Origin: Gemmatimonadota bacterium
GTDB taxonomy: Bacteria; Gemmatimonadota; Gemmatimonadetes; Longimicrobiales; UBA6960
DNA length: 11,167 nt
Assembly: GCA_022564535.1 (NCBI GenBank)
Contig: JADFLD010000026.1
Span: forward strand, 1-11,167
Reading direction: 5' to 3'
Position 1 is the first letter of the stretch, and each line of letters starts with the position of its first letter. A program made the translations under genes and the position numbers. Positions 920 through 11,083 of this stretch are shown here, piece by piece. The notes below the pieces were generated by a model. It worked only from the letters and a program-made list of their open reading frames with translations, had not been told where the DNA came from and made no database searches.

Positions 920-937
920 CCCATGCGTCCGCATGGG
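920..937. repeat. perfect 8+8 palindrome in divergent spacer
   Basis: CCCATGCG (920-927) and CGCATGGG (930-937) are exact reverse complements separated by TC. The element lies between the divergent PP2C and DUF2911 genes, upstream of both candidate promoters, and there is no T-run after it. An operator is more likely than a terminator. An imperfect C-rich/G-rich inverted repeat sits just to its left (about 896-917). Confidence 0.5.
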
Positions 938-973
938 TCGCAGCGGGAGCCTCGAGGGCGCCCATTCAGTGAC

Positions 974-1001
974 TTGAAAAAGGACCGGGCTCTGATAGCT
1001 T
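974..1001 (+). promoter_or_regulatory. candidate promoter for the DUF2911 lipoprotein gene
   Basis: TTGAAA (974-979) and TAGCTT (996-1001) are spaced by 16 bases and lie about 45 bases ahead of the chosen ATG. The -35 match is good and the -10 match is weak. Confidence 0.3.
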
Positions 1002-1045
1002 CCCGCCCATCAGTCCTTCTCGACCCGGTAGCCAGCAGGAGAATC

Positions 1046-1678
1046 ATGCGCTTCATCAGGACCTTTCCCACCCTCTTGGCCGCAACCCTCCTCATCGCCT
1101 CATGCGGCGGTGAAGAGGCGATGGGTGAAGCGAACTCGAGCGACATGGACGTGGCCGCAGGCGATGCCCTCTCCTGCTATGTAGCGCGAGGCTCGGTAGC
1201 GGAGTCGCGAGAGCGTCCCAGCCCCCTCCGCGAGACGGAGTTGAGCATCGGCGGCAACTCGGCACTTCTTTGCTACGGTGCCCCTTCGGCGCGTGGTCGC
1301 GACATCATGGGAGGCCTACTCGTCTACGGGCAGCCCGAACGGGTCGGCGCAAACGAACCCACCACGATCCATCTGAGTGGCCCCGCCTCGGTCGGCGGCG
1401 TCTCGCTCGAAGCGGGCAGCTACTCCCTCTACGCAGTCGCCAACGAGGACGAGTGGCGCTTCTTTCTCAACTCCAACTGGGAGCGCTGGGGCATTCCGAT
1501 CGACAACGCCGTGCGCGCCAATGAAGTCGGAAGCTTCACAGCCACCCCGGAGTCCATGGACGAGATGGTGGAGACGCTCAGGTACCGCTTCGAGCCGACG
1601 GCCGATGGCACGATGGGTGACATCGTCCTGGAGTGGGAGCACACGCGGGTGAAGTTCCACGTGCATCCGGGAGCGTAA
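1046..1678 (+). CDS. DUF2911-family lipoprotein
   Basis: The product is a predicted exported lipoprotein of 210 residues. It starts with a basic-hydrophobic signal and the lipobox IASC, with the lipidated Cys at residue 20. A polar, Gly/Glu/Ser-rich linker follows. From about residue 55 to the end it matches the DUF2911 pattern as I know it: an RPSP segment, RGRDIMGGLLVYG, RVGANEPTTI, LEAGSYSLYAV, DEWRFFLNSNWERWG and a final LEWEHTRVKFHV. The function of DUF2911 is not known. The frame is open further upstream to an ATG at 923, but the start at 1046 is preferred because it has an AGGAGA site about 4 bases ahead and puts the signal sequence at the N-terminus. The longer start would also put the upstream palindrome inside the gene. 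The gene is monocistronic, divergent from PP2C and convergent with the MscS operon. The usual anchoring Cys is present, so a periplasmic-facing location is likely. Confidence 0.9.
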   Translation: MRFIRTFPTLLAATLLIASCGGEEAMGEANSSDMDVAAGDALSCYVARGSVAESRERPSPLRETELSIGGNSALLCYGAPSARGRDIMGGLLVYGQPERVGANEPTTIHLSGPASVGGVSLEAGSYSLYAVANEDEWRFFLNSNWERWGIPIDNAVRANEVGSFTATPESMDEMVETLRYRFEPTADGTMGDIVLEWEHTRVKFHVHPGA

Positions 1679-1750: not shown

Positions 1751-2794
1751 TCAGTCGCTACCGCCCGGAGATTGCATGACAACGGTCCGGATCGGGAATG
1801 GAATCTCGATGCCCGTGTCGCCGAACCGCCTGTGCAGGCGCTTGATGAACTCGTGCCTGATCGGTCCCTGACTCCTGAACTCACGCACCATCATCCGCAC
1901 CTCGAAGTTGATGCTCGAGTCGGCAAATGTGTGGAACAGAAACACAGGCTTCTCCTCTGGCAGTCCTCCGTCGATCTCCTTGAGTACCTCGGCCGCGACC
2001 TCGAGTGTGACACGTTGGACCTCCTCGAGGTCGCTGTCGTAGCTCACCCCAACCTCGATGCTCACCCAAAGTGATGGGCGTGGAAAGCTGAAGTTTTTCA
2101 CGATCGACGACGCGAGAAGGGAGTTCGGCACATCGACGAGATTCCCGTCGGGAAACGTTTGAATCGTGGTACTCCGGCCCTTCACATCGGTGACCCATCC
2201 CGCTTCTCCGGAGCTCAGTTGGATGTAATCCCCTGCGCGCACCTGTCTCGATAGAATGATCTGCACTCCGGCGAAGAGGTTGCCGAGTGTGTCCTGCAAG
2301 GCCAGGGCGACGGCGAGGCCGCCGATGCCAAACGCGGTGATGAGGGGCGTGATGTCGATCCCGAGATTCCCCAGGACGATGGAGATGCCGAGCACCGCGA
2401 CCGCCCCGCGGGCAAGATGCACCACCAGCGTAGGCGAGCGAATCGCCCCCGGAGAACGCGTGGAGAGCAACTCGACGGCGCCCGCGGCCAGCCGCATGCC
2501 CCCTACTACCACGGAGCCGACCAGGACAATCATCAAAACGCTCTGCACAACGCTCGCGACCACCGGTTCGGTGTCGCCCACCGTGAGCGCGAGGTACACG
2601 CCACCCGTCCCGAGCCAGACGGTCGGCAGTCCGCGGAGTGCTTCGACCGCGAGATCGTCCCACTTGAAGCGGCTCAGAGACGCCAGCTTGAGCACCTGTT
2701 TCATGACGAGACGCTCGATGAGGTAGCCCAGCAGGATCCCTCCGATGACGAACGCTAGGCGTTGTACCCAGGGCAGCTGAAGGAGGTCGGTCAT
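1751..2794 (-). CDS. MscS-family mechanosensitive ion channel
   Basis: The product is a 347-residue inner-membrane small-conductance channel that would release solutes when membrane tension rises. Hydrophobic segments lie near residues 10-30, 53-72, 80-108 and 122-143. The pore helix at about 150-182 contains the Gly/Ala-packed GIGGLAVALALQDTLGNLFA pattern typical of MscS. A beta domain follows (AGDYIQL, then a segment with VTDVKGRSTTIQTFPDG and VPNS). An alpha/beta C-terminal domain ends with the family signature GIEIPFPIRTV at 328-338. With about five membrane segments it is longer than E. coli MscS (three segments) and closer to YnaI-like members. It has no cyclic-nucleotide-binding domain of its own. 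Its ATG overlaps the stop of the upstream gene (ATGA), so translation is probably coupled. An AGGAGG-like site was not seen ahead of the ATG, which fits coupling. It is the last gene of a three-gene operon. Confidence 0.95.
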   Translation of the reverse strand: MTDLLQLPWVQRLAFVIGGILLGYLIERLVMKQVLKLASLSRFKWDDLAVEALRGLPTVWLGTGGVYLALTVGDTEPVVASVVQSVLMIVLVGSVVVGGMRLAAGAVELLSTRSPGAIRSPTLVVHLARGAVAVLGISIVLGNLGIDITPLITAFGIGGLAVALALQDTLGNLFAGVQIILSRQVRAGDYIQLSSGEAGWVTDVKGRSTTIQTFPDGNLVDVPNSLLASSIVKNFSFPRPSLWVSIEVGVSYDSDLEEVQRVTLEVAAEVLKEIDGGLPEEKPVFLFHTFADSSINFEVRMMVREFRSQGPIRHEFIKRLHRRFGDTGIEIPFPIRTVVMQSPGGSD

Positions 2795-4749
2795 TTTTCC
2801 GCAGTTTCCAGAATGCCAGTCAGTACCTCTCGCGTGATCGCGTAGAGGGGCGGTACACCTTCAGCCGCCCGAAGGCGTGCGGACAGGTTGGCATCGTGGC
2901 GCAGAGGAAGGTCGGACGTGTAGTAGAGGAAGCGGAGGCCCAAATCGTCGGCGATCGCGCCGCGGCTCATGGATTGGGCGAGATGGCGCAGGTAGAACGC
3001 CCCCTCCATCTCCAGGCCAATACAGCGCCAGATATGACGATTGAAGTGAAGCATCGTGCGATTCTGCATCAGCGTGCCGGTCACCGTGAGCATGTTGCCA
3101 ACGTGGACGCTCCGATCGGGCGTACGAGACCGAAGCCGCTCCACGTCTACGATCTGCCCACCTGGAATCGCGTGGTAGTAGTCTCGCGACTGCTCGACGA
3201 AGCCGGAGGCGACGAGTATGTCGCCTCGCTCACCCACAAGGCCTCCGGCCTTCCCCAAAACGCTGACGCTGCTGAGGTTTCGACCGAACAGCGACGCCAG
3301 ATTCGCGACGATGTGTTCCGCCTGCTCACCGAACGCGTAGTCGATGTTCACGATCAACGAGGGGCGACTCGGCGGCCCATCGGGAATGCCGGGGTCCATT
3401 TCGCTCCACGCGAGCTTCGACGTGTCGATGAGTTGGACCGCGATTCCGGTGAATGCCGTCCATTCCAGCGTCAGGATTCCGGACTCTCTCTCGGCCCGTG
3501 CCCGCACCTTCACGTCGCCGGGCCCGCCCCTCAAATAGTCTGGAGTGAGCGCGCACACGAGGTCGTATTCCTCATGCCACTCCTCCTCCGCAAGCATGTG
3601 ACCGGACGTGCGCCCCCACTCGAGAATGGCGCCTGCGTTCTCCCTGACCCATGAACTCAGACAATTTTGTACGGAGTGCGTATTGCTGCTGATGACGTGA
3701 ACCGGGAGGTCGTCGGGCAAATCCGTCGGATCGAATCCCAACAACTCACGGGTCGCCCGCGCGATCTGAGTACACCACGACTCGGCGTGTGCGCTGTTGT
3801 AGTTGTTAGGCTCCTTGTGGACTTCGATACGGAAGTCCTCGTGATGCAGCGCGATCTCACGAACCCTCTCCGCGGTATCGTCGGGCCAGATCGCCTTCAA
3901 GGGCTCGACGTCCGCATCCGACAGGGCGTCGAAGCCACCCCGGTCTCGAACCCGGCGCCGAATCTTCTTCGCCTCGATCGAATAGAGACAGAGGCACGTG
4001 ATCAGATCGACGAGGTCCGAGACACCATCCCGCACCAGTACCATGTTCTTGCCCGGGATCATCTCATAGATGGCCCTCCTTCGCGCAGACGTCGGGACGG
4101 AGAGAAATCGCTCATCGGGATTCGCATACAACTCCGGCAAGACGCCGGTCAGGTAGAAGGACAAGGTTCTGGTGACGTTTTCGGGAAGCCGCCGCACCGC
4201 ATACGTGAGGGCCCCGAAGTCGATCACGTCCCTCGTAGAAGCGTGGGGATGCAGCGCGGGATCGAGCTCCCGATAGAACGGAAGGAGTCGTTGCAGATCG
4301 ACCGAGCCTCTCGCCACGGCGCGCAGGAGCTCGACGTGGAAGCGATCGAACGGCGCGAAGATCCCCTGTTTGTCTCGAAGGATGCTGCCCAGCGCCTGGG
4401 CGAAGGGGGTCGACTCGTGGACGAGCCGGAGGAAGCGTTCGCCCGACATCGTGAGCGCGCGGACCCGATCCACGGCCCGCACCTCCTGTCCTCTTCGCTC
4501 GTCGAAGAGCGCGGCCCGTTCGCCGATGTAGTGGCCCGTCGTCACGATCCTGGAGCGACCACGCCGTCCAGAATCTCGGTCCATCACCCGAACGGAGCCT
4601 TCCGCGAGGAGAAAGACACGCTTATCCGACTCGTCATCCTGCTCGATGAGCACTTCGTCGGCCTGGAACACGCACTCGGTCAAATCCGCGCGCAGCGCGT
4701 CCCGCTGCTCCGGCGAGAGATACCGGAACGGAATGATCTGCTCGAGCAT
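2791..4749 (-). CDS. cyclic-nucleotide-binding domain protein with nucleoside-phosphorylase-like C-terminus
   Basis: This 652-residue cytoplasmic protein has no signal peptide. Residues 1-120 form a CAP/PKA-type cNMP-binding domain: FLLAEGSVRVM at 46-56, then a phosphate-binding cassette with GERAAL at 76-81 and Arg86 in the position of the phosphate-contacting Arg. Residues 170-300 are a helical region (ALTYAVRRLPENV, KNMVLVRDGVSDLVDLIT). Residues 350-470 contain VHVISSNTHSVQNCLS. The C-terminal 190 residues resemble purine nucleoside phosphorylases and AMP nucleosidase: GKAGGLVGERGDILVAS at 499-515, GLEMEGAFY at 578-586 and TSDLPL at 611-616. Asp613 corresponds to the catalytic Asp and Glu580-Met-Glu to the ribose-binding segment. 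The middle and C-terminal parts recall DUF6909 from memory of that family; this was not checked by a search. The start is ATG with GAGG four bases ahead, 6 bases after the upstream stop. Enzymatic activity is inference. Which nucleotide it binds is unknown. Confidence 0.75.
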   Translation of the reverse strand: MLEQIIPFRYLSPEQRDALRADLTECVFQADEVLIEQDDESDKRVFLLAEGSVRVMDRDSGRRGRSRIVTTGHYIGERAALFDERRGQEVRAVDRVRALTMSGERFLRLVHESTPFAQALGSILRDKQGIFAPFDRFHVELLRAVARGSVDLQRLLPFYRELDPALHPHASTRDVIDFGALTYAVRRLPENVTRTLSFYLTGVLPELYANPDERFLSVPTSARRRAIYEMIPGKNMVLVRDGVSDLVDLITCLCLYSIEAKKIRRRVRDRGGFDALSDADVEPLKAIWPDDTAERVREIALHHEDFRIEVHKEPNNYNSAHAESWCTQIARATRELLGFDPTDLPDDLPVHVISSNTHSVQNCLSSWVRENAGAILEWGRTSGHMLAEEEWHEEYDLVCALTPDYLRGGPGDVKVRARAERESGILTLEWTAFTGIAVQLIDTSKLAWSEMDPGIPDGPPSRPSLIVNIDYAFGEQAEHIVANLASLFGRNLSSVSVLGKAGGLVGERGDILVASGFVEQSRDYYHAIPGGQIVDVERLRSRTPDRSVHVGNMLTVTGTLMQNRTMLHFNRHIWRCIGLEMEGAFYLRHLAQSMSRGAIADDLGLRFLYYTSDLPLRHDANLSARLRAAEGVPPLYAITREVLTGILETAEK

Positions 4750-4755
4750 CGTGCC

Positions 4756-5181
4756 TCAGCCGCTCGAGGCGAGATCCGCGAAGTATTGCCTCATCCCGGC
4801 CATGCGCTCGGCCGCACCCGGCCACTCGGCCGCTACCTGCTCCACATGTTGGAAAAGGCTCGGCTGACCCGTGACCTCCCGCACCTCCTCGATCATGTGT
4901 TCCACCTTGCAGTACAGCGCAAGCATCTCCCCGCAGGTCGCATAGAACATCGGCGTATCGAGGGCCCCGTGCACGACGAACGTCGCCGCCATGTCCCAGT
5001 AACCAGTAGCCATTCTCAGGAAGACACCGTTGTCCGATTGCAGCGTGGAGACCACGTCGTCGGGGGAGGTCGGATTGAACTCGCGAATGCACCAGTCTCT
5101 GGCCTCCCGCAGCTTGGGGTCCCTTCGGAGGTCATACAGACTCATCAGCGTTTGGGCGTTCTCATGGGGTGTGCTCAACAT
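4756..5181 (-). CDS. hypothetical 141-residue protein, first gene of the cNMP/MscS operon
   Basis: I do not recognise the family with certainty. The protein is soluble, mostly helical by composition, without signal peptide or membrane segment. Notable stretches are SLYDLRRDPKLREARDWC at 14-31, a TSPDDVVSTL segment, MATGYWDMAATFVVHGALD at 57-75 and a long helix-prone EHMIEEVREVTG segment. The same frame stays open upstream to 5652, but that extension runs antisense to prfC and is probably not translated. The ATG at 5181 was chosen because GGAG lies just before it (a short spacing of 3) and the likely protein sequence begins there. An ATG at 5145 is a weaker alternative. The stop is 6 bases before the ATG of the 652-residue gene, so the two are almost certainly co-transcribed. 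It may be an accessory or regulatory subunit for that protein. That role rests only on gene order. Confidence 0.75.
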   Translation of the reverse strand: MLSTPHENAQTLMSLYDLRRDPKLREARDWCIREFNPTSPDDVVSTLQSDNGVFLRMATGYWDMAATFVVHGALDTPMFYATCGEMLALYCKVEHMIEEVREVTGQPSLFQHVEQVAAEWPGAAERMAGMRQYFADLASSG

Positions 5182-5376
5182 CGACTCCAATTTCACCGGG
5201 GATGGATTCCAGAACGTGAGAACTAGCGAAATACTCGGGGTAGCGCACGGGGACGGACTCGACTTTCTTCCGGCCATGAATCGCATATCATCGGCCGCCG
5301 CCGGAGTCGGCGTGGCGGCCGCACTCATAGCCGAAATGTTTGTGGAGTCGTCGAGCCGCGCCGAGGACGAGCATTG

Positions 5377-7064: not shown

Positions 7065-7418
7065 GAGGGGCGCACTTTACTTGTGCCGCTCTTCTTCGGT
7101 GGCATCTATCAATCCGCGAGACGGATATCCTCGCGAGCGCAGCCACAAAAACCTTGCTCCGGCTCAACCAGGACCGTGGTGACCGATATCCAGATGCCGC
7201 GAGGTGACGGGATAGAGTTGATCTCAGCGTTGAAAGGCATGGACCGGGACGCGTCGATCGTAGCAGTCTCCGGACAGACTCCGCACAAGTTACAGATCGC
7301 TCAATTGGCGGGTGCGCGTTCAATCCTCCTGCAGCCACTCACGAAGGAACGGCTCACGGAAGCCGTCGAGGAAGCATGCCTGCCGCTCGAGCCGGAGCCC
7401 CTCGCCGGGGGCTACTAA
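7065..7418 (+). pseudogene. decayed response-regulator receiver domain
   Basis: The second half of a CheY-like receiver domain is readable from 7173: TVVTDIQMPRGDGIELI with the phospho-acceptor Asp codon at 7185-7187, then ASIVAVSGQ and SILLQPLTKERL. The first half is broken. A strand-1-like RTLLV is readable in the same frame (about 7071-7085). Helix 1 to helix 2 appear one frame away as ALLRWHLS and DILASAATKTLLRLNQD (about 7085-7172). The acidic DD pair that should follow strand 1 is missing, and the conserved Lys of the KP motif is Gln (LLQP). There is no ribosome binding site before the only available start, a GTG at 7083. The most likely reading is a gene disabled by a deletion and a frameshift. 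A short expressed protein cannot be excluded. Confidence 0.65.
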
Positions 7419-7426
7419 GGGAAGAG

Positions 7427-7439
7427 GTTCCCTAGGAAC
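7427..7439. terminator. small inverted repeat at the junction of convergent genes
   Basis: GTTCC (7427-7431) and GGAAC (7435-7439) pair around CTA, which is the stop codon of the caspase gene on the minus strand. A second perfect 6-bp stem, AGCCCC (7396-7401) with GGGGCT (7408-7413), lies just to the left. There is no T-run; the terminator role is inferred from location only. Confidence 0.25.
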
Positions 7440-9207
7440 TCCCTCCGCCCCCTACGACGGCCAACGGGATGTCTCCGAACCCACTCCGCTGCGGGTTCTG
7501 ACGTCCATTCGTCGCGGCGCGCACGTTCACACTGACGTGCTCGAACAGCTCGGTGAACGTCACGATGCCGTTGCCGTCGAGGTCGCCCGCACCGTGGAGC
7601 CCATCCAGCAGAAAGTGGGTGAAGACCCCGTGACCGCCCCAGCGCTCGTCCTCGAGGCTGAATTCGTTGGTGTCCGCGGCGGTCATCATGAGTCGACGCG
7701 AAGGCGTAAACAGGCCTTGGAAGCCGCCGGCAATGTGGTTCGACGCTCCACCGCCCACGACATCGCCGTCAGCGGTACCCGCGGCGTGACAGGCATCGGC
7801 GATGACGATGACCCGCTCGGCGGCGATTTGACGGCGTAGGGCGGTCTTCACATCCCACATCGGGAAGCCGGTCGCGGCGAGTGAACCCAGGTCCGCGTCC
7901 GTCGGAAGCAGATAGAGGTTGTCCGGCCGGCCGGGGTCGGGCGCGCCGTGCCCCGCGTAATAAATGAGCACGAGATCGTCCCAGTCGGCCTGCTGCAGAA
8001 AAACGAAGAGCGCCTCCCGCATGGCTGCCCCCGTCGCACGCTCGTTCTCCAGGTACAAGACCTCGTCGAACGGACCCGCCGCGTCACTTTCCAGAAACTC
8101 CTTCATGGCCCGTGCGTCCGAAGTGGCGAACTCCAGGTCGGGAATGTCGTCGGACTGATACTTACCGACGCCGATGACGACCGCCCACCGTTTGTCGATA
8201 CGGGGCGCGGCGAACGTTTGCGTCGTTTGCCCCCCGGCACCCTCAGCGACGATCAGGACGCTATCCTGGCTGATCGGGAGCGTGAACTCACGACTGAAGC
8301 GACGCACGTCCGACCCACTCAAGCCCAGTCGCGCGATCTCCTCCGCGGTCATCGACTCGATCTGGGCCGGCTGGCCCTGGACCTGGACACTGGTCGCGTC
8401 GCCGATGACCACGCCCTCGAGGCGCACGACGTTCTGGACGCTCGAGGAACCGCCCTGGTTGCGACGGACTACGCCGATGCCACGTGTGGCCACGTCGCCT
8501 TCCGCCGGCAGGACCTCCGCCGACAGCACCGCCAGCCCAGGAGCTACGCCCACTCCTCCCGTCGCCGCGCTCGCGGTCCGTGCGGCCGACTCCTGAATCG
8601 AGCCCGGATCCGGCACCCAGTAGGAGTCTTCCTGCCAGGAGCGCTCCTCCCAGTCGTTCAGGACCGCTCCAATGAATTTGCCGATGACCTCCTGCGTAGC
8701 CGCCCGGATCGCTTTGGCCCGTGCCGCCTGACCGGTCGCCTCAATGGCTCGCGCGTCGGCGACGGCGTCTGAGACGACCTCACCCAGGTCGAGCCGCAGC
8801 GCCCGTACGGCGACCTCGGTCGTCGCCGTGATCAGCGAGCCCCCACCGGGAGATTCCCTCGTGGCATAGTCGGCCACCCCGAGAATGATGACCTGGGCCC
8901 CCCAGTCACGGCCGAGCTGTGTGGCGGCACCGTCGTTACCGTTCATCGCCGCCGTGACCAACGCCTGCGACGCCTCGTCGATCGCAAGCGCAGGATCGAT
9001 CACCGGGAAGCCGGCCTCCCGCAGGAACGACGTCATCTCTCTGGACGCGACCTTGCCGCGCCCCTCTTCCTGGATGAACACCATCATGCGGGGACGGTCA
9101 CCCTCGAAGACGATTTCCTGCGCCGTAGAACCAAGAGGCAGTAGCAACAAGCCGGCGAAGAACAACACCGCCGGCCTCGCCCCGCGCGCTGACGGACGGG
9201 ATCTCAT
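7432..9207 (-). CDS. secreted caspase-like (peptidase C14) protein with CsgG-like N-terminal region
   Basis: This 591-residue protein starts with a signal peptide (hydrophobic core about 13-26, likely cut after GSTA or STAQ), so it should act in the periplasm or outside the cell. Residues 35-185 resemble the CsgG/LpoB fold: a strand MMVFI, LREAGFPVIDP, QLGRDWGAQVIILGVADY, then a long helix. A Ser/Ala/Gly-rich linker and a beta-rich segment (VVRLEGVVIG to about 334) come next. The caspase domain begins at about 339 (RWAVVIGVGKYQ). It has the catalytic His420 in YYAGHG and Cys473 in IADACHAAG, so the dyad is intact. Near the C-terminus an EF-hand-like loop, DLDGNGIVTFTEL (542-554), may bind calcium. 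The start at 9207 has GGAGG eight bases ahead and is one base after the stop of the CsgG gene. The frame is open further to 9285, but that would overlap the neighbour and bury the signal peptide. Substrate and trigger are unknown. Confidence 0.9.
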   Translation of the reverse strand: MRSRPSARGARPAVLFFAGLLLLPLGSTAQEIVFEGDRPRMMVFIQEEGRGKVASREMTSFLREAGFPVIDPALAIDEASQALVTAAMNGNDGAATQLGRDWGAQVIILGVADYATRESPGGGSLITATTEVAVRALRLDLGEVVSDAVADARAIEATGQAARAKAIRAATQEVIGKFIGAVLNDWEERSWQEDSYWVPDPGSIQESAARTASAATGGVGVAPGLAVLSAEVLPAEGDVATRGIGVVRRNQGGSSSVQNVVRLEGVVIGDATSVQVQGQPAQIESMTAEEIARLGLSGSDVRRFSREFTLPISQDSVLIVAEGAGGQTTQTFAAPRIDKRWAVVIGVGKYQSDDIPDLEFATSDARAMKEFLESDAAGPFDEVLYLENERATGAAMREALFVFLQQADWDDLVLIYYAGHGAPDPGRPDNLYLLPTDADLGSLAATGFPMWDVKTALRRQIAAERVIVIADACHAAGTADGDVVGGGASNHIAGGFQGLFTPSRRLMMTAADTNEFSLEDERWGGHGVFTHFLLDGLHGAGDLDGNGIVTFTELFEHVSVNVRAATNGRQNPQRSGFGDIPLAVVGGGGSS

Positions 9208-9208
9208 T

Positions 9209-9895
9209 CTATGTGCCTCCTCGCAAGCGCCCGAGAGCGCGCTGTGCGCCTTCGTGCGGGGGATGAATCTCGAGGGTCGCCTCATAGCGCTCGATCGCCC
9301 TCTCGGTCTCTCCGCGATCCTCGAGGTCCACCGCCCGGCTGAACTCGATTATGGCTGAAACCGGAGTCGGCTCCACGTGGGCCCGCGCAGACGGCGGCGT
9401 GAGATTCAGTTTTCGGCCGAACTCGTCCGCCAGGGCGATCACGACTGCAAAGAGCTCGCTGGTCTTGTCCGACTTCTTCAGCACCGCGACGATCTCGGAC
9501 GTCTCGACGTCGACCGCCCGGATGTCCATGCGGAGGTTGTCGACAATGCTCGTCACCTGGCCATGCAAGACATATTGGACCCCGAGCATCTTGCCGACCT
9601 CGATGGCGTCGGCCTCCTCGATGCGGCCCGAAAGATTCAGATCCTGCTCGCGAAGCAGCTGGTTGAGCTGGGCACGCTCGATTACGTGCATCCCCTCGCG
9701 GTTACTGAACTCCGTAACCAGCATGGCGGCGACGGCCTTGCCCAGGTTCACGGCAGCCCCCGCGTTGCCCATCATGAAGCTCGTGAAGTCCATGACGGCG
9801 ACGGTGGGAACGTCGCGGGCCTGCGCCGAGGCGGTCGTCACCCCAAACGTGAAGACGCCGAACGCGACAGCTAGGACGATCTTGCTATTAGACAT
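9209..9895 (-). CDS. CsgG-family periplasmic protein with C-terminal TPR
   Basis: The product is 228 residues with a Sec signal peptide (about 1-25, cut near ASA-Q or AQA-R) and no lipobox Cys, so it is predicted to be periplasmic rather than a true lipidated secretion pore. Residues 30-163 show the CsgG pattern: TVAVMDF, NLGKAVAAMLVTEFS, HVIERAQLNQLLREQDL, then VGKMLGVQYVLHGQVTSI. Residues 176-215 form a TPR-like helix pair (EFSRAVDLEDRGETERAIERYEATLEI). The start ATG has GGAG six bases upstream. The stop TAG is one base before the caspase-like gene, so the two form one operon. It lacks the extended beta-barrel insert expected of curli CsgG as far as I can see. A scaffold or sensor role is therefore as likely as transport. 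Confidence 0.9.
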   Translation of the reverse strand: MSNSKIVLAVAFGVFTFGVTTASAQARDVPTVAVMDFTSFMMGNAGAAVNLGKAVAAMLVTEFSNREGMHVIERAQLNQLLREQDLNLSGRIEEADAIEVGKMLGVQYVLHGQVTSIVDNLRMDIRAVDVETSEIVAVLKKSDKTSELFAVVIALADEFGRKLNLTPPSARAHVEPTPVSAIIEFSRAVDLEDRGETERAIERYEATLEIHPPHEGAQRALGRLRGGT

Positions 9896-9915
9896 TCCGT
9901 TCTCCGAGGCCAGAG

Positions 9916-9945
9916 ATCGTAGCCACCTCTAGCCGGATGAGGCAA
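9916..9945 (-). promoter_or_regulatory. candidate promoter for the CsgG/caspase operon
   Basis: On the minus strand TTGCCT (9945-9940) is followed after 18 bases by TACGAT (9921-9916), about 20 bases before the ATG. The agreement with -35/-10 consensus is reasonable but was judged by eye only. Confidence 0.35.
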
Positions 9946-9949
9946 GAAT

Positions 9950-9982
9950 GCGGGCAAATCAGGGAAGAAACCCTTTGCCCGC
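9950..9982. promoter_or_regulatory. long inverted repeat between divergent promoters (operator-like)
   Basis: GCGGGCAAA (9950-9958) and TTTGCCCGC (9974-9982) are exact 9-base reverse complements. Inside them GGG (9962-9964) can pair with CCC (9971-9973) around an AAGAAA loop, leaving a 3-base bulge. The right arm contains the -35 of the plus-strand promoter, and the left arm lies 4 bases from the -35 of the minus-strand one. A repressor or activator site controlling both directions is the simplest reading. Confidence 0.5.
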
Positions 9983-10003
9983 CCCTTAGCCTGCTCCTAT
10001 AGT
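9975..10003 (+). promoter_or_regulatory. candidate promoter for the TPR-CsgG lipoprotein gene
   Basis: TTGCCC (9975-9980) and TATAGT (9998-10003) are separated by exactly 17 bases, about 100 bases ahead of the ATG at 10103. The -35 lies inside the right arm of the inverted repeat. Confidence 0.4.
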
Positions 10004-10102
10004 TTATGATGGTACCAACGGGGATGCGAGAAGATTCTTCGCGTCCTCACCGAAACCCGTTTCGTCTCGCGATGACTCGTCGCTCCCCAAGGAGCTCTGC
10101 CC

Positions 10103-11083
10103 ATGATGCATGCCTCAGTACGCCAACCGAGGCGCTTCTTTCTCCTCTTCGCAGGGTTGGGTCTCTCCGCCTGTGCCTCGGGACTCCCCGAAGTCGAGCC
10201 GGTCGACATCCCTCGACTCGAGCAGGAGGTCGCAGCCTCTCCGCAGGACACAGATCTGCGGGTCGAACTGGGAATGGCCCTCTTCAAAGACGCGGACTAC
10301 GAGGCGGCACGGGTTTCCCTCCAGGGGGCCGTCGATGACGGAAACGAATCGGGTCCGGTCTTCCTCTATCTCGGGATGGTACAGGAGGAACTGCGCGATT
10401 GGTCCGCGGCCCGTGAGGCGTACAACAGGTACCTCGTTCTAGGGGCCTCGGCCCCGGCGCGAGACGAGGTCCGCACGCGCCTCACGATGATCGGGCGGAA
10501 CCTGCTGAGGGCCCAGGCGCAGCAAGCGCTGGCGCAGGAGCAGGAAATCACGGCGGGCGGCGAAGTTACCCTTCGGTCCGTCGCGATCTTTCCGCTCGCG
10601 TTCAATTCGGATCGTGACGAACTCGAGCCGTTGATCTACGCGCTTGCGGACATGATGATCACCGACTTCAAGGTTTCCAATGCGCTGATCGTCCTCGAGC
10701 GAGTGCAAATCCAGACGCTTCTAGATGAAATGCAGCTCACCTCGGCTGGCTACGCCGAGGCCGAAACCGGGGCACGAGCTGGACGCATGCTCCGAGCCGA
10801 ACACGTGTTTCAAGGTGTGCTGACGACACTGGGCGAGAACGATCTTCAGACGGATGCGGAAATCTTCAATGTGCCAACCGAGTCCTCGGTCGGTCAGCTC
10901 ACCGAGTCTGCGATCCTCGAGCAGATATTCGACATGGAGAAACGCACATGCCTGGACGCAATCGACAGCGGCGCGTACGCAGCGGAGTGGGTGAGCGAGC
11001 GGAAGCTGCGATTGGACATTGACGAGGTGGATCGGGTCGATCCAGACGCCGCCAAACGCCTCGATCCGACACTCAAGAACTGA
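10103..11083 (+). CDS. TPR and CsgG-like domain lipoprotein
   Basis: The product is 326 residues. It has a signal with a lipobox LSAC (lipidated Cys24), then two or more TPR-like helix pairs: DLRVELGMALFKDADYEAAR (51-70) and VFLYLGMVQEELRDWSAARE (86-105), followed by NRYLVLG. A Gln/Ala-rich helix (136-148) leads to a CsgG-type domain at about 156-285: SVAIFPLAF, LADMMITDF, LIVLERVQIQTLLDEMQL and ARAGRMLRAEHVFQGVL. The chosen ATG is the first of two in tandem, with AAGGAG eight bases ahead. The gene is divergent from the CsgG/caspase operon and shares its intergenic region. The TPR is N-terminal here and C-terminal in the neighbour, so the two proteins have mirrored architecture. It is likely an outer-membrane lipoprotein facing the periplasm. 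No downstream gene is visible in the remaining bases. Confidence 0.9.
   Translation: MMHASVRQPRRFFLLFAGLGLSACASGLPEVEPVDIPRLEQEVAASPQDTDLRVELGMALFKDADYEAARVSLQGAVDDGNESGPVFLYLGMVQEELRDWSAAREAYNRYLVLGASAPARDEVRTRLTMIGRNLLRAQAQQALAQEQEITAGGEVTLRSVAIFPLAFNSDRDELEPLIYALADMMITDFKVSNALIVLERVQIQTLLDEMQLTSAGYAEAETGARAGRMLRAEHVFQGVLTTLGENDLQTDAEIFNVPTESSVGQLTESAILEQIFDMEKRTCLDAIDSGAYAAEWVSERKLRLDIDEVDRVDPDAAKRLDPTLKN

Follow-up and report, generated by a model that had tools for sequence, protein, structure and literature searches.

The bacterial cyclic nucleotide-gated (bCNG) channels are reportedly members of the MscS superfamily that carry a fused domain binding cyclic nucleoside monophosphates (cNMP). 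Two further systems are relevant here, namely Pycsar, in which sensors of the cyclic nucleotide-binding (CNB) type are fused to effectors, and Detocs, in which the effector is a nucleosidase of the nucleoside phosphorylase-I (NP-I) type. The locus analyzed in this study lies in an 11,167-nucleotide stretch of a Gemmatimonadota bacterium (contig JADFLD010000026.1; this whole stretch is called the window) and consists of genes A, B, and C (Table 1), of which B encodes a CNB domain joined to a DUF6909 domain, a predicted NP-I nucleosidase, and C encodes an MscS-type channel. As in the bCNG channels, an MscS-type channel and a CNB domain are encoded together, but in the window the CNB domain resides on a separate putative enzyme next to a channel of the plain MscS kind, so that the two are not parts of one polypeptide. 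The sequence-only reading that preceded this analysis had described a three-gene operon that couples a cNMP sensor, a nucleosidase-like domain, and a channel; there are indeed three genes, but the sensor and the nucleosidase are one protein (B), and the third gene (A) encodes a DUF4760 protein, for which that reading proposed no role. The parts of the B-C locus are of known kinds; their combination appears to be new. In the open-licence PubMed Central papers searched, DUF6909 is not named, none was found that links an AMP nucleosidase to cyclic nucleotide binding and mechanosensitivity, and the one listed for a nucleosidase with MscS is an unrelated review, which is not proof of absence.

Table 1. 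Coordinates of the features of the locus in the window (gene coordinates include the stop codon)
Feature	Position	Strand	Description and basis
Gene A	4756..5181	minus	141 aa; all-helical DUF4760 protein
Gene B	2791..4749	minus	652 aa; cNMP-binding domain and DUF6909 (predicted NP-I nucleosidase)
Gene C	1751..2794	minus	347 aa; MscS-type channel without CNB domain
B aa 1-127	4369..4749	minus	CRP/CNB domain; PF00027, 3.4e-13 at aa 27-112; Foldseek
B aa 72-92	4474..4536	minus	phosphate-binding-cassette-like stretch with Gly76, Glu77, Arg86; conservation in 60 sequences
B aa 320-652	2794..3792	minus	NP-I nucleoside phosphorylase/nucleosidase fold; predicted fold
B aa 580-583	3001..3012	minus	E-M-E-G, presumed ribose-binding Glu motif; conservation
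B aa 609-616	2902..2925	minus	YYxSDLPL, presumed catalytic Asp motif; conservation
45-bp intergenic block, A to prfC	5236..5280	.	kept in L001; 41 columns in G309

We tentatively favor the reading of B as a cyclic-nucleotide-regulated nucleosidase that is co-expressed with the MscS stress channel C and acts in parallel with it. The N-terminal CNB domain would bind a cyclic nucleotide whose cyclase is encoded elsewhere in the genome, the middle domain would pass the change on to the C-terminal NP-I domain, and the latter would split a purine nucleoside or nucleotide and release its base, with AMP as a candidate substrate. B is most likely made from one transcript with the MscS gene and translated next to it, and adjustment of the purine pool and an osmotic release valve could thereby be deployed in one stress programme, in which B and C would work side by side and physical coupling would not be needed. 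This reading of DUF6909 turns the family into an enzyme that can be tested directly, and bacterial cAMP/cGMP signaling may thereby gain a new output. The readings weighed in this text overlap, and the degrees of confidence placed in them need not sum to one.

The Foldseek match of the CNB domain of B is the CNB-B domain of RIalpha of protein kinase A (PKA) (5kjy; root-mean-square deviation (rmsd) 2.0, 126 columns), sequence comparison with the PDB is led by cGMP-dependent protein kinases, and PF00027 matches all 60 compared members of the B family. Within the pocket, Gly76 is present in 60/60 sequences, Glu77 in 57 (Asp in the other three), and Arg86 in 59; the roles of Glu77 and Arg86 are assumed by us from CAP and PKA. 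The cNMP pocket thus appears to be retained, in support of the cNMP-type domain proposed earlier. It is unlikely, in our view, that this domain binds a ligand other than cNMP or only mediates assembly, with the nucleosidase being constitutive: many CRP-fold domains do bind other effectors, residues 87-89 of B, just past the pocket Arg, are variable among the 60 sequences, and a B homolog in Persicobacter manages without a CNB domain, but the conservation of Glu77 and Arg86 and the top matches to cGMP-dependent kinases argue for a cyclic nucleotide.

B is also a member of DUF6909 (PF21850; 9.1e-106; 354.7 bits, the cut-off being 27), a family to which the Pfam entry gives no function; both the fold assignment and the suggested regulation by the CNB domain are additions of the present analysis. 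The predicted fold of the C-terminal part resembles the NP-I nucleosidases and phosphorylases, including purine nucleoside phosphorylase (PNP), methylthioadenosine nucleosidase (MTAN), uridine phosphorylase, and the AMP nucleosidase Amn, which lends support to the earlier suggestion of a nucleosidase-like domain; by our own reading of the secondary structure, helices around aa 366-422 appear to form an insertion. E580, M581, and E582, as well as S612 and D613, are present in 60/60 B-family sequences, and we take E-M-E-G to be the ribose-binding Glu motif and SD the catalytic Asp motif. In a non-significant alignment with Escherichia coli Amn (E 0.23), E-M-E-G is in register with 'DME' and SDLPL with 'SDKPL', and the glycine-rich G-x-x-G-G, G-D, M-E, and S-D motifs occur in like order. 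B differs from the NP-I enzymes by the N-terminal CNB and middle domains and by the S355-N-T-H-S-V-x-N-C loop and the GKAG lysine, both found in all 60 sequences. PF01048 is matched at E<=0.1 by 11 of the 60 family members, the window protein not being one of them. The NCBIfam library presumably contains an AMP nucleosidase model; the matches of the window protein to this library at E<=1 include no nucleosidase model.

Proteins that combine DUF6909 with a CNB domain run into the hundreds: among 7994 candidates scored, 528 B homologs were found at E<=0.001, with a CNB domain in 119 of the 120 listed. Where a source is named, it is Gemmatimonadetes, Longimicrobiales, Polyangiaceae, Salinispira, Spirochaetota, or Planctomycetota; a form without CNB domain is found in Bacteroidota.

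Several observations weigh against the regulated-nucleosidase reading. The window protein has no PNP match in Pfam at E<=1. The 50 best structure matches are PNP, methylthioadenosine phosphorylase, MTAN, uridine phosphorylase, and futalosine hydrolase, AMP nucleosidase being absent from them, and the Foldseek alignment with AMP nucleosidase is loose (rmsd 8.7, TM-score 0.28/0.40); therefore AMP is a weak candidate for the substrate. The profile alignment with E. coli Amn falls short of significance, as given above, and nothing in the conserved S355-N-T-H-S-V loop evidently corresponds to the catalytic Glu of MTAN. The Persicobacter homolog lacks the presumed regulatory domain, and in genome G416 (genomes and loci are designated by G and L numbers where needed) B is on a different contig than C, which adjoins prfC directly; the latter case counts against a fixed B-C pair. 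Finally, class III cyclases (PF00211) are present in G001 and G416 and not in G166, all three carriers of DUF6909; across the order, 63 of 154 genomes have them, among these G309 and G419, which are without B, but not G083 or G231. Since B-less genomes also have cyclases, their presence is weak evidence: the distribution fits cNMP signaling and hardly discriminates. CNB domains are general, with a match in all six genomes checked and above the cut-off in five.

In the window, all three genes are on the minus strand; A and B are separated by 6 bases and B and C overlap by ATGA, just as had been noted from the sequence. The close spacing recurs in L001, a Gemmatimonadetes metagenome-assembled genome (JAQBXY010000001.1), where A, B, and C follow in the same order with two gaps of 6 bases and zero overlap, at identities to the window of 77% for A, 75% for B (aa 1-648), and 72% for C (aa 1-267). 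At L001 positions ~9757-9901 the MscS frame diverges from its relatives past approximately residue 267-280, due to a frame break or a sequencing error. The tight spacing suggests co-transcription of the three genes, and to this extent the proposed co-expression stands as a prediction from spacing; a consensus scan of the locus turned up no promoter-like site.

The product of C is an ordinary MscS. The models PF21088, PF00924, and PF21082 (TM3, beta, and C-terminal domains) score above their cut-offs, the PDB match to MscS 6pwo has an E-value of 2.2e-27, and Pfam gives no PF00027 match at E<=1; hence the earlier statement that the channel lacks the cNMP domain, which is encoded by the adjacent gene, is correct. 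This arrangement, together with the short spacing kept in L001, is what would be seen in a split ligand-gated channel, where B would dock on the cytoplasmic vestibule of MscS and gate the pore through its CNB domain, in the way proposed for the fused domain of bCNG channels. We consider such a dedicated channel very unlikely. C is common without B: it matches at E<=1e-40 in 29 of the 154 genomes of the order, compared to 3 with any B. The MscS neighbor in Persicobacter is paired with a CNB-less B, a gate would not need a fully conserved enzyme site, and the symmetries disagree, as NP-I enzymes are dimers, trimers, or hexamers and MscS is a heptamer. Further, C adjoins prfC without B in five genomes, and the B-linked Cs form no clade, as follows.

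DUF6909 was found in 2 of 395 genomes of a phylum sample, 3 of 154 of the order, 3 of 118 relatives, and 3 of 394 of a class sample; the samples overlap, and the only carriers are G001, G416, and G166. B is complete in G001, runs off the contig end and is in two frames in G416, and is present as fragments only in G166. We compared 30 C loci by tblastn, covering ~1.5 kb on either side or less at contig ends. B is upstream in two of them (L050 of G001 and, as a remnant, L030 of G166), prfC is found directly in its place in five (L031, L032, L034, L037, and L058, the last with a partial C), and the other 23 have neither gene within the compared stretch. The genomes in which C is the immediate neighbor of prfC, with neither A nor B present at the locus, are G416, G309, G231, G083, and G419 (C partial in G419). 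In G166 (L030/L004) the decayed B is upstream of an intact MscS gene, that is, the nucleosidase is lost and the channel stays. The intergenic block between A and prfC, upstream of the latter, is common to the window, L001, and G309, in the last of which C itself adjoins prfC: none of 300 mononucleotide shuffles reaches the score against the window for L001 or G309, compared to 13 for G416, 53 for G231, 192 for G083, and 79 for G419. The block and the C-prfC loci imply that B, with or without A, separates C from an upstream region that is shared with prfC, as a result of either gain or repeated loss.

These data make it possible, if doubtful, that adjacency means no partnership, that is, B is a free-standing cNMP-regulated nucleosidase placed between the MscS gene and the prfC-shared upstream region, and B and C share a transcript, not a function. 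In line with this, C occurs beside prfC in the five genomes, the prfC-side block is shared, C outlives B in G166, and in a tree of 28 C sequences the seven B-linked ones are not a clade (6 changes, with 217 of 500 shuffles as low), where four of the seven labels stand for presumed co-location on equal-sized contigs and some of the rows without a label could be of either state. At all five B loci with a readable downstream neighbor (the window, L001, the G166 remnant, and two in Persicobacter) this neighbor is an MscS gene, the sixth, in G416, ending at the contig end.

A scan of a plasmid collection for DUF6909 yielded two Persicobacter records, from two species of one genus and hence one lineage. 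Plasmid pPP3 of P. psychrovividus encodes a CNB-less DUF6909 protein with 33% identity to aa 321-648 of B, and 4 bases downstream of its gene lies an MscS-family gene; in Persicobacter sp. JZB09, an unannotated record, the same pair is 150 bases apart, with a PF00924 match inside the second gene. The pPP3 channel belongs to a different subfamily than C (35% identity over 65 residues), and with 2 PF00924 matches among the 320 annotated features of pPP3, a chance downstream adjacency has a probability of ~0.6%, which speaks against adjacency alone. The order of B followed by MscS thus recurs in a second phylum, Bacteroidota. A more ambitious proposal, which we regard as rather unlikely, is that DUF6909-MscS is an ancient two-gene unit of at least two phyla, in which an NP-I nucleosidase, under direct cNMP control in most lineages, gates the channel or controls the nucleotide pool that the channel releases. 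If true, this would be, to our knowledge, the first cNMP-controlled nucleosidase, and second messengers would be tied to purine breakdown and osmotic valves in a new way.

Possible co-location, which is at most what equal-sized contigs indicate and is not adjacency, was looked for among the listed homologs (120 for A, 120 for B, and 119 of 120 for C). Homologs of B and C share contig sizes 7536, 27499, 23786, 2443189, and 2755. The last is likely a coincidence, since a contig of that size could not hold both genes in full and the two sources are not the same. Sizes common to A and B are 39960 (the contig of the window itself), 301006 (that of L001), and 2443189; those common to A and C are 3380, 2443189, and 4368507.

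The sequence-only reading had also raised a nucleotide-signaling defense unit. In a Pycsar-like version of it, a cNMP signal would switch on the nucleotide-destroying enzyme in abortive infection, with the membrane pore as second effector. Fusions of CNB sensors to effectors do occur in Pycsar, and PADLOC gives five matches of B to TIR effectors, PycTIR, and PycC; all of them, however, are via the CNB domain, the PycC match spanning only aa 18-123. B is similar to Pycsar in having a putative CNB-controlled effector and to Detocs in the NP-I type of this effector, but it differs from them by the lack of an adjacent cyclase or two-component partner, by the syntenic setting, and by the channel neighbor. 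In particular, the pyrimidine cyclase that stands beside a CNB effector in Pycsar is absent: Pfam detects no cyclase among the eight window proteins scanned, and A, C, prfC, and the DUF2911 gene do not encode one. The locus is surrounded by genes in an order shared with L001 (prfC, caspase, CsgG), and no relatives were found in the phage collection or in two viral scans. Given the restriction of the PADLOC matches to the CNB domain and the synteny with L001, we consider a role in defense highly improbable.

Among the neighboring genes, a DUF2911 gene (window 923-1678) is kept beside MscS in G416, G309, G231, G083, G419, and G166 and was not found in L001. On the other side, L001 encodes a 135-aa response-regulator-like protein (4306-4713) that matches window positions 7173-7403 only from residue 59, while tblastn gave no match in the window for its N-terminal half. 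The genes for a caspase-domain protein (PF00656) and two CsgG-type proteins (window 7435-11083) stand in unchanged order beside prfC in L001, and in G420 (L044) the caspase gene borders on the MscS gene as well.

Gene A, a DUF4760 member (PF15956; 6e-20, 72.3 bits against a cut-off of 25), was rejected as an essential third part. It is present in 21 of the 154 genomes of the order and adjoins B in only one of these; of the six B loci, it is upstream of B in the window and L001 and not in G166, G416, L007, or L008. As A is beside B in so few loci and elsewhere adjoins argG or other genes, a fixed three-gene unit is not supported: all three genes recur in order in L001 and B-MscS in the second phylum, whereas elsewhere A is not kept beside B. 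A is probably a same-strand neighbor that does not contribute to the function of the unit. Six of the 21 A loci (L010-L012 and L017-L019) have A between the same two genes; by Pfam, one of these is a Lon N-terminal-domain gene, as tested in one copy, and the other is argG, as tested in two.
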